Notes under the pieces: generated by a model
The model's input: the letters and a program-made list of their open reading frames with translations, nothing else
What the model was told of the DNA's origin: nothing
The model's database searches: none
Position numbers and translations under genes: made by a program
Source: Limosilactobacillus oris
GTDB taxonomy: Bacteria > Bacillota > Bacilli > Lactobacillales > Lactobacillaceae
Direction: 5' to 3'
Assembly: GCF_025311495.1 (NCBI RefSeq)
Contig: NZ_CP104398.1
Coordinates: 496,001 to 560,000, forward strand
Length of the DNA: 64,000 nt
Shown here: positions 595 through 61,612 of the stretch, piece after piece
Position numbering within the stretch: position 1 is the first letter of the stretch
How the letters are laid out: every line of letters starts with the position of its first letter

Positions 595-879
595 CTAGCC
601 AATGTCCTCACCTACAATCATCGTGTTTCCCTTGAGCGGGCGTCGTCCAGTCGTCAATCGGTAATGCTTATCACCATCATCAATGGTTAAATAGCTAAAA
701 CCAACTTCGACTGGATGTAGGGCCCGCACTACTAACGCCCGCTGGTTAATGTTTCCCAGCACGTTAGCAGAACGATCAACCCCTACATCAGTGACGTTTG
801 CCATGTCCTCAGCTACTAGCTTGATGTCACCGCTGCGGTGGCCTTCCTGGTAGAACTTCACTACGCTATCCATTCGCAT
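595..879 (-). CDS. Head-closure (stopper) protein candidate
   Basis: A 94-residue product starting MRMDSVVKFYQEG. Homologues are not recognised with certainty. Its place between a head-tail connector and a gp10-like protein is where head-closure or stopper proteins of SPP1/HK97-type phages are encoded. The start at 879 overlaps the connector's end (866) by 14 bases. A longer frame extends to 1038, but that part is a shadow of the connector gene. Confidence 0.55.
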   Translation of the reverse strand: MRMDSVVKFYQEGHRSGDIKLVAEDMANVTDVGVDRSANVLGNINQRALVVRALHPVEVGFSYLTIDDGDKHYRLTTGRRPLKGNTMIVGEDIG

Positions 880-1246
880 GGCTATCACCTGCGTATGGAT
901 TGATGAACTGAACTTTGCCCAATGACTTGATTTCCCGTTTCTTTCGCCATTCAGCGATGTCATCAAGGAAACTGTCAAAATCCGTGTTGTCAAAGGTAAT
1001 GGATTCGCCTTCTTGAGAATACGAGGACATGCCTTCATTCTTCAAGCGGTTATACCGTTTCACACAGACTTCTAGGGGAATATAGCTCAATTCACTTGGA
1101 AATTTTTCTTCAGTAGTCAGACCTAGCTTGAACCGGGCCTGCGCAACTGTATTTTTGATAATCAATTCTAAAACACTGTCCATCTTATCGGTGGACAGCT
1201 GCAACATAGTCTTCAAATCTTCTTTATTAACAGGTTGGTCCTTCAC
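866..1246 (-). CDS. Head-tail connector protein (gp6-like)
   Basis: A 126-residue, mostly helical protein (MKDQPVNKEDLKTM...). The N-terminal helical pattern with QARFKLGL, followed by ELSYIPLEVCVKRYNRL, fits the Phage_connect_1/gp6-like adaptor family that docks onto the portal after packaging. It lies just after the capsid gene and its -1 frame extension and begins the connector gene series. The family call comes from the sequence pattern plus position. Confidence 0.65.
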   Translation of the reverse strand: MKDQPVNKEDLKTMLQLSTDKMDSVLELIIKNTVAQARFKLGLTTEEKFPSELSYIPLEVCVKRYNRLKNEGMSSYSQEGESITFDNTDFDSFLDDIAEWRKKREIKSLGKVQFINPYAGDSHANG

Positions 1247-1258
1247 TTTGGAACCCCC

Positions 1259-1399
1259 TTACTTTACTAGTGCCAATAATTCGTCCTTAGTGGCACTGGC
1301 AGTGTAGCTAATGCCGTGCTTATCAAGGTAAGCCTTAATTTCGGCTACGGTATTAGCAGACGTTGGCTTAACGTCGGTATCGTCCGCCGACGGGGTTAA
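1259..1399 (-). CDS. Start-less LEM/HeH-like domain, read as -1 frameshift extension of the capsid protein
   Basis: An open frame with no ATG, GTG, TTG or CTG lies in the -1 frame directly after the capsid gene. It codes for 46 residues: an LTPSADDTDVKPTSAN linker, then a compact helical unit containing TVAEIKAYLDKHGISY and ATKDELLALVK, the pattern of HeH/LEM or SAP-like nucleic-acid-binding domains. It is bounded upstream by an in-frame TGA just before the slippery site, so translation can only enter by frameshift. The fused product would be 335 residues. See the frameshift feature for the signal. Confidence 0.7.
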   Translation of the reverse strand, partial: LTPSADDTDVKPTSANTVAEIKAYLDKHGISYTASATKDELLALVK

Positions 1400-1405
1400 T
1401 TTCCC
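1372..1405 (-). promoter_or_regulatory. -1 programmed frameshift signal (slippery heptamer plus hairpin)
   Basis: On the minus strand, G GGA AAT at 1405-1399 matches the X XXY YYZ slippery heptamer in the capsid frame and ends right at the capsid stop codon TAA (1398-1396). After a 6-nt spacer comes a perfect 6-bp GC-rich stem: CGTCGG at 1392-1387 pairs with CCGACG at 1377-1372 around a 9-nt loop. Heptamer, spacer length and hairpin are all in the canonical arrangement. A -1 slip enters the open LEM/HeH-like frame. Confidence 0.75.
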
Positions 1406-2265
1406 TTGCCATCAATAGTTGCCAGCACAATACCGTCCAGGCGTTCTGGAAAGACCTTCATGGCATCCATGATTACTGATTGATAAGTCAGAGAATCATT
1501 AACATTGTTATGGGCAATCCCAATTAAACCAGTTTCATCCGTTGTAAAGCTGAATGCCTGGGCTAGATTTCCACCGACCTGAGCATAAGCAATATTCAAG
1601 TTATTAGCCGCAGTAGCAATAACCTTACCCTGCGGAACGGCACTGGAAACAATAACTGAATTGAAGTTGAAGAAGCCTTGTAAATAAGTCATTCCAAAGG
1701 CAGTCTGCAAGGTAACATCCGTATCACCAAGGTAATCGTAGAAGTCTACTGGGTTAACGAAGAGAACAGACTGAATGTCGTCATCTTCCCACTTCACAGC
1801 TAACTGCCCCATTACCTTAGCCACAGCGCCCTTAAACGAGGTTGCAGTAGTCGTAGTAACGCCAGAAGTATTAGCCAGGTAGCTAAACAAGCCATTCTTA
1901 ATATCCTTTTGAATATCCTTCAGCAGCTTGGCATCAGTATCATTAACTGCGGCTTGGAAGCCGGAGGACTGGATAGATTCCGCAGTAACCAGTTTCCGGT
2001 ACTTAGAATATTCAAGCGTTAATGTATCGGCCAGCTTACGGGTAACCTTGGAGAGCGGAATGACTTCCCCTTCACCAACCTTGCCATTGGCCTTAGTGAC
2101 TTCGGACTTGTAAATTTTAATTTGATTGCCGACAGGCATTGGCGTTAAGCGGGTAACGCCTAGAATTTCTTGTAACTTCTTAATGGACCCTGTGAACTGT
2201 TCCGTAAAGTCAATGGAAGCAGCAATCAAGTCATTTTGCATTGTAGTATTAGCTTCAGCAGCCAT
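1396..2265 (-). CDS. Major capsid protein
   Basis: A 289-residue protein (MAAEANTTMQNDL...), the expected size and position for an HK97-fold major capsid protein directly after the scaffold gene. The pattern of an N-terminal helical region, LTPMPVGNQIKIYKSEVT, GEVIPLSKV and FVNPVDFYDYL fits capsid proteins of Lactobacillus siphophages. A ribosome site (AGGAGG) precedes the ATG at 2265. The C-terminal codons contain the -1 slippery site, so a minor, longer capsid form of 335 residues is predicted. Confidence 0.85.
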   Translation of the reverse strand: MAAEANTTMQNDLIAASIDFTEQFTGSIKKLQEILGVTRLTPMPVGNQIKIYKSEVTKANGKVGEGEVIPLSKVTRKLADTLTLEYSKYRKLVTAESIQSSGFQAAVNDTDAKLLKDIQKDIKNGLFSYLANTSGVTTTTATSFKGAVAKVMGQLAVKWEDDDIQSVLFVNPVDFYDYLGDTDVTLQTAFGMTYLQGFFNFNSVIVSSAVPQGKVIATAANNLNIAYAQVGGNLAQAFSFTTDETGLIGIAHNNVNDSLTYQSVIMDAMKVFPERLDGIVLATIDGKGN

Positions 2266-2276
2266 AGTATAACCTC

Positions 2277-2900
2277 CTATTTATTAAATAAGTCGAGGTG
2301 CTTAGCGATAGACTTCTGACGCTCCAGCGGATCTTTAATTTTCATAATGTCAGCCTTAGTTACTGACTGTTGACCATTGACCCGTGGCGTCGTGCCTTTA
2401 AGCATCCCTTGTTTCGTCTTATCTTGAACATCAGCGATTAGATTCAGAATTGCCTTGGTGTTAGCGTAAGTCTGCTCATCATCCCCCGTGACCACCATTT
2501 CAACAATTTCATCAGACGGATTAAAACCACTATCTTGAAAGACAGCCATTGTTTCCTTAACGGCCTTATTGTGGTCAAGCTGGTTCTGCAACTCTTGAAT
2601 CCGTTTGTCCTTAGCCGCCAATTCGTCTCTCGACTTAGCATCATCAGATAGTTCTTTGACCGACTTCTTCTTGTCCATAGAGCCCTCAAGTTCCTTAATC
2701 CGGGCTTTCAGTCGGTCGTTTTCGTCCTTGTACTGATTTTTCTCGCTTTGTTCCTTACCAATCCGCTTCTTGAGCTTGCCTAGCAAGGCATCGCTGTCCA
2801 CCCCTTCAACCTTTGGCGCCTTAGGCTGTTCTTGAGTTTCCTGTTTGCCTTGTTTTTCGTTAGCCGGAGTAACGTTTTGGCTAGTAGTATCTTCATTCAT
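2277..2900 (-). CDS. Capsid scaffolding protein (DUF4355/GPO-like)
   Basis: A 207-residue, strongly charged protein. It has a Gln/Lys/Glu-rich N-terminus, a central coiled coil (about residues 50-120, with KNQYKDENDRLKARIKELEG) and a C-terminal basic segment that includes MKIKDPLERQKSIAKHL. This is the usual make-up of scaffolds that shape the procapsid and are then expelled. It sits immediately upstream of the capsid gene. The start at 2900 is preceded by AAAGGAG; the frame's GTG at 2918 lies before that site and is not used. Confidence 0.8.
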   Translation of the reverse strand: MNEDTTSQNVTPANEKQGKQETQEQPKAPKVEGVDSDALLGKLKKRIGKEQSEKNQYKDENDRLKARIKELEGSMDKKKSVKELSDDAKSRDELAAKDKRIQELQNQLDHNKAVKETMAVFQDSGFNPSDEIVEMVVTGDDEQTYANTKAILNLIADVQDKTKQGMLKGTTPRVNGQQSVTKADIMKIKDPLERQKSIAKHLDLFNK

Positions 2901-2992
2901 AGTAAAAACTCCTTTCACGCATTTACGGCCATGGGAGGCCCTCGGGCTTAGTTAACGTCCACACACACGGAACGGACAAAAGTTAATTAAGA

Positions 2993-61258: not shown

Positions 61259-61612
61259 TTAGTTTAATGCTTGCTTAGCTTGGTCAGCGATGGCAGCGAA
61301 GGCCTTTGGATCGTTAACCGCCAAGTCAGCCAGCATCTTCCGGTTGATGTCGATGTTAGCCAGCTTCAAGCCGTGCATCAACTTGCTGTAACTGATGTTG
61401 TTCATCCGGGCAGCAGCGTTGATCCGGGCAATCCAGAGTTCACGGAACTTACGCTTGTTGACCTTCCGATCACGGAAAGCGTAAACGTAACTCTTCATTA
61501 CTTGGTCCTTAGCAGTCTTGAATAAACGAGACTTAGCACCACGGTATCCTTTTGCTAACTTCATAACGCGCTTCCGACGAGCACGCGTAACAGTTCCACC
61601 TTTAACTCGCAT
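61259..61612 (-). CDS. rplT: Ribosomal protein bL20
   Basis: 117 residues. [20 protein letters not shown] and [20 protein letters not shown] are typical. Binds 23S rRNA and feeds back on its own operon through the leader. Normal length. Confidence 0.97.

Follow-up and report, generated by a model that had tools for sequence, protein, structure and literature searches.

The end of the major capsid protein gene at this locus raises the question of whether a reading frame that overlaps the capsid stop codon is translated as part of the capsid protein, by which means, and what the added domain might do. The capsid gene occupies positions 1396..2265 on the minus strand of the window (the whole 64,000-nucleotide stretch of DNA analysed), and encodes a short form of 289 aa with a predicted HK97-type fold (PHROG phrog_544, major head protein, E 9.8e-56). 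It lies between a scaffolding protein gene upstream (2277..2918, minus strand; Pfam DUF4355, capsid assembly scaffolding protein Gp46, E 1.2e-7) and a head-tail connector gene downstream (866..1246, minus strand; Pfam Phage_connect_1, E 1.2e-20). The model of a capsid relative, L015 (58% identical), matches PDB capsids of the HK97 fold, including HK97 itself (Foldseek, best E 2.4e-8; the model is of moderate confidence, with a mean pLDDT of 65). By its family match and the modelled fold of this relative, the window protein is an HK97-fold major capsid protein. The genomes that it matches bear the names of Limosilactobacillus and Lactobacillus, and the host is probably a Limosilactobacillus or a near relative. 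Outside the window, the tail assembly chaperone gene of this prophage (L148 ~6865, genome G000:C1 ~494865) contains A AAA AAC and continues open in -1, which is the well-known gpG/gpGT arrangement.

The capsid gene ends, on the minus strand, in GGC AAG GGA AAT TAA CCC CGTCGG CGGACGATA CCGACG. The slippery heptamer G GGA AAT (GGGAAAT, 1405-1399, minus strand) stands in the 0 frame as X XXY YYZ, directly before the 0-frame stop TAA (1398-1396, minus strand), which the -1 extension overlaps. The 6-nt spacer TAACCC (1393..1398, minus strand), recurrent in most relatives, leads from the heptamer to a hairpin (1372..1392, minus strand) with a 9-nt loop and a 6-bp stem with zero mismatches, in which 1392-1387 pair with 1377-1372. 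Reading the minus strand shows that the first-pass annotation had placed heptamer, stop, spacer and hairpin correctly. Taken alone, the window hairpin exceeds its dinucleotide shuffles by a modest margin only (p 0.04), marginally beyond chance; its significance rests on the relatives. Plain minimum-free-energy folding of the 48 nt after the stop was uninformative, as alternative pairings mask the local stem; stems were detected instead by a local stem search against shuffles.

The -1 frame extension (1259..1399, minus strand) consists of 46 codons and a stop, and is closed upstream by a TGA, after which it reads WQGK-LTPSADDTDVKPTSANTVAEIKAYLDKHGISYTASATKDELLALVK-stop, with TAA at 1261-1259. 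The window -1 frame contains no ATG, GTG or TTG, either ahead of the domain's first helix or inside it. A capsid protein continued into this frame would have 289+46 = 335 residues, and the trans-frame junction peptide GNLTPSADDTDVKPTSANTVAEIK (alternative GKLTPSADDTDVKPTSANTVAEIK) would be diagnostic of this form. The domain core (KPTSANTV...LLALVK; 1262..1369, minus strand) matches Pfam Ish1 with E 1.4e-7 and 32.2 bits, above the cut-off of 26.6, and Pfam HeH (PF12949) with E 9.8e-7 and 28.8 bits, 0.1 bit short of the curated cut-off of 28.9. Its AlphaFold2 model (mean pLDDT 83.8) has helices at H19-29 and H39-45 with an extended stretch between them, and on this model the domain fits a HeH/SAP-like fold of helix, extended stretch and helix. 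Searched against PDB folds, the HeH model has no significant match, the best being T4 endonuclease VII (E 0.53). The window extension has no Ig-like character, as judged from the two-helix model and the lack of an Ig match in Pfam. Differences in the HeH frame fall mostly at third codon positions, with a pooled pN/pS of 0.26 over 128 domain pairs, and by this comparison of sequences the domain is under purifying selection. The first-pass annotation had described a start-less 46-codon frame behind a TGA, which our reading of the frame bears out, and had assigned to it a helical LEM/HeH-like unit, in agreement with the profile matches and the model; its arithmetic for the 335-residue form is also correct.

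Among relatives of the window capsid, HeH is kept in the -1 frame in L001 (96% identical), L002-L008, L010-L014, L021 and L025, where GGGAAAT, AAAAAAT or GTCAAAA/ATCAAAA precedes TAA and a hairpin begins 6 bases past the heptamer in each. The 6-nt spacer holds in most relatives, even where the heptamer is set back by one codon, as in L033 (A AAA AAA) and L034 (C CCA AAA), in which GCG TAA forms the six bases. Within the same capsid family 100% of the stem cells are paired and 2/6 pairs are changed on both sides (covariation), and pairing falls to 32-40% in a control in which the partner strand is slid. The domain is fused in frame to the capsid in L015, L016, L026 and L030. L142 and L015, sister capsids that are 76% identical, differ in mode: L142 would slip by -1, and L015 has the fusion in frame. 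In L032 an Ig-like domain takes the place of HeH in the -1 frame, and in L035 HeH lies in +1. The capsid genes of L017-L020, L022 and L024 end in GGTAAG, without slippery site, good stem or extension, which means that the HeH domain is dispensable. Three others (L009, L023 and L029) retain the slippery site, the spacer and a 7-bp hairpin after loss of the HeH domain, their -1 frame stopping after ~16 codons. In this comparison of capsid loci, of the kind suggested as a check on the initial proposal, relatives conserve the type of heptamer, its fixed distance to a covarying hairpin, and the -1 frame.

A wider survey classified 94 loci by the position of HeH relative to the upstream long frame: 48 in -1, 28 in +1, 8 in frame and 10 not classified. 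An in-frame/-1 double assignment of L165 is an artefact of overlapping frames, and L036-L040, degenerate or partial copies, were left out. The survey contains 58 distinct junctions on ~10 capsid groups. A slippery triplet (AAA/GGG/TTT) stands in register at 35/35 distinct -1 junctions, with motifs that include GGGAAAA/T/C, CCCAAAA, AAAAAAT, NTCAAAA and similar, and a CCC codon occurs in the last six codons at 0/35 of the -1 and 21/22 of the +1 junctions. The split of slippery site and CCC by frame class gives a Fisher p of 1e-14, uncorrected for relatedness, which is only a guide because the junctions are not independent in descent. A local stem (p<=0.05 against shuffles) was detected at 24/38 -1 junctions and 7/22 +1 junctions; the -1 junctions of L093, L117 and L122 lack a clear hairpin. 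An own start codon in the extension frame is absent at nearly all -1 loci surveyed. Whole genomes of the same family hold further cases, where the commonest site is C CCA AAA GCG TAG/TAA.

These comparative data strongly support the original suggestion that a -1 frameshift adds a HeH/LEM-like domain to the capsid protein, and from the sequences we consider it very probable that ribosomes undergo a programmed -1 frameshift where the capsid gene ends. Weighing against it are the relatives whose capsid has no extension, those that have lost the domain behind a retained slippery site and hairpin, the -1 junctions lacking a clear hairpin, and the marginal significance of the window hairpin by itself. 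The elements of a -1 signal are found together: an X XXY YYZ motif in the 0 frame, a structure ~5-9 nt downstream with compensatory changes, and a downstream frame that is conserved as protein without a start of its own. Most ribosomes would terminate at TAA and yield the 289-residue protein, while the hairpin and the stop codon beside the slippery site would pause a minority, which could shift back by a single base at GGGAAAT and translate 46 further codons. The product would be the 335-residue protein, with HeH attached at its C-terminus through a flexible linker, and this long form would co-assemble into the shell and show the domain on a minority of the subunits. We infer the slippage at the window site, its efficiency and the incorporation into virions; to judge from known extensions at the C-terminus of capsid proteins, the domain would probably be displayed on the outer surface of the capsid.

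The HeH frame could instead be a separate small gene, re-initiated after the capsid stop, as might be thought of A118, where the frame bears the annotation ORF7 and the stop is overlapped by an ATG (TAATGG), and of the HeH-Ig-LysM gene that stands alone elsewhere (L181, L183) and has a Shine-Dalgarno sequence and an ATG of its own. We regard this as very unlikely at the window, where neither ATG, GTG nor TTG precedes the domain, as in nearly all -1 relatives; re-initiation would also leave the slippery motif and the hairpin unexplained, and the same domain occurs fused in frame to capsids. These in-frame fusions (L015, L030, L161) could in turn suggest that a sequencing error or a recent indel has split a capsid-HeH fusion in the window. 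The arrangement, however, recurs in independent genomes, from the 96% identical L001 to dozens of more distant loci, where slippery sites are conserved and the -1 frame is under selection, which leaves an error or indel a nearly negligible probability. Finally, the long form could be made by slippage of RNA polymerase and not of the ribosome, which is conceivable at the runs of seven A in a few relatives (L033, L142). Most sites, however, are short, as is GGGAAAT, on which a polymerase would not slip efficiently, and a hairpin at a constant distance of 6 nt suits a ribosomal signal, so that polymerase slippage appears extremely unlikely and ribosomal frameshifting is the reading that we retain.

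The frameshift signal and its domain are found behind unrelated capsids. Comparison by blastp places the upstream proteins in ~10 capsid groups (Phage_capsid, Phage_cap_E, Phage_capsid_4, PHROG 544 and unassigned), and within one capsid family all three modes occur: in frame in L161/L163/L175, +1 in L157/L188 and -1 in L190. The window and phage phiPYB5, whose capsid belongs to a different blastp group, have a DNA similarity of 72% that starts at the first base of the heptamer, and such an onset on unrelated capsids is the pattern expected of a transferable cassette. The cassette apparently moves between unrelated capsids, and the -1, +1 and in-frame modes appear to be interchangeable. The genome with L001 has another viral contig, on which the cassette lies behind a truncated portal protein with a capsid-like end (L059, upstream of 3001), probably a deletion or a chimera.

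Among PHROGs, Arc-like repressors and endonuclease VII are relatives of the HeH domain, and nearly the same domain (22-25/35 residues identical) ends the ribosomal proteins S16 (bS16; L173, L177, L179) and L20 (bL20; L178, L180, L182) in several Lactobacillaceae genera. Full-length S16-HeH matches were found in 26/301 genomes searched; the ribosomal proteins of this host, whose L20 gene lies at 61289-61609 of the window, have no HeH extension. In L181, L183 and L184, a stand-alone gene with a Shine-Dalgarno sequence encodes 235 aa, in which HeH is combined with an Ig-like stretch and ends LysM-like. For the role of the domain, the first-pass annotation had proposed binding to DNA or to the host surface as possibilities; the most likely role would be weak binding to nucleic acid or another polyanion. 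The PHROG relatives and the domain ends of S16 and L20 favour binding of the nucleic-acid type, a preference that we hold tentatively and at less than even probability. The phage-like gene that joins HeH to Ig and LysM speaks for an adhesive role: the domain might be a module for adhesion to the host surface, like Ig-like capsid decorations, and not a nucleic-acid binder, and it does take the place of the Ig-like domain of A2 and L032. Since the other proteins with this domain, namely Arc-like repressors, endonuclease VII, S16 and L20, act on nucleic acids, we consider adhesion somewhat unlikely. A further reading, which we judge improbable as a whole, combines two propositions: that HeH travels together with slippery site and hairpin as a mobile recoding cassette, passed by Firmicutes phages between unrelated capsids, and that the domain, shared with host S16 and L20, engages from the capsid the same ligand, for example structured or ribosomal nucleic acid. 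If true, the displayed capsid HeH and the S16/L20 domains would imply one common ligand.

Capsid extension through frameshifting is usually discussed for Ig-like domains, and HeH would be a second, unrelated domain delivered likewise, on ~10 capsid sequence groups and in -1, +1 or in frame. This breadth and the three modes suggest selection for the domain on part of the shell, and not recombination accidents. The extension has been overlooked in many annotated phage genomes, and harmless Lactobacillaceae prophages make the role of minority capsid forms testable.

Frameshifting at the ends of capsid genes is known from several phages. It occurs in -1 and gives Ig-like capsid extensions in T3 and A2, is reported in -1 for the Listeria phages A118 and A500 and in +1 for PSA, and in PSA the +1 slip is accompanied by a reported pseudoknot (PMC5009743). 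A literature search for HeH with capsid and frameshift found nothing among the open-access papers covered, and the Listeria experiments are known to us through the review PMC5009743. In A2 orf5, as in the window, a -1 slip just before the stop (C CCA AAA) provides a minority capsid extension, although the A2 extension is Ig-like, not HeH, and its capsid is unrelated. The contrast with A2 drawn in the first-pass annotation thus holds for the domain and fails for the layout, which is the same. PSA shares with the window a HeH-like C-terminal tail on part of its capsid protein (judged by eye, without a profile search); unlike the window it slips +1 at CCC, and the similarity of the capsids is weak and insignificant. 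The Lactobacillus fermentum phages phiPYB5, LF1 and LFP01 have nearly the same cassette of heptamer, hairpin and HeH, with the frameshift unannotated, on a capsid of another family (~375 aa, with a maturation protease).

In A118 and A500 (cps), G GGA AAC stands directly before TAA and the -1 frame encodes a HeH/LEM domain (RefSeq annotation), just as the window has a -1 HeH right behind the capsid gene and GGGAAAY before TAA. A hairpin 6 nt downstream is likewise seen at the near-identical site of L051. At L051 (1205-2010), the capsid of Listeria phage LP-LmcIH1-9 is annotated as two separate frames, perhaps because the gene is broken or was wrongly sequenced or assembled. The A118/A500 capsid differs from that of the window in being unrelated by blastp, in its longer hairpin and in its host genus, and A118 also has an ATG overlapping the stop. 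The novelty first claimed for the window is thus less than suggested, as A118/A500 and PSA already add a HeH-like domain by frameshifting. What appears to be new here, and broader than the sources describe, is the breadth of the cassette, its apparent mobility, the seemingly interchangeable modes and the occurrence of HeH on S16 and L20. The window case itself is not a new kind of system, and is closest to A118/A500, because these share with it the combination of G GGA AAC TAA and a HeH/LEM domain.
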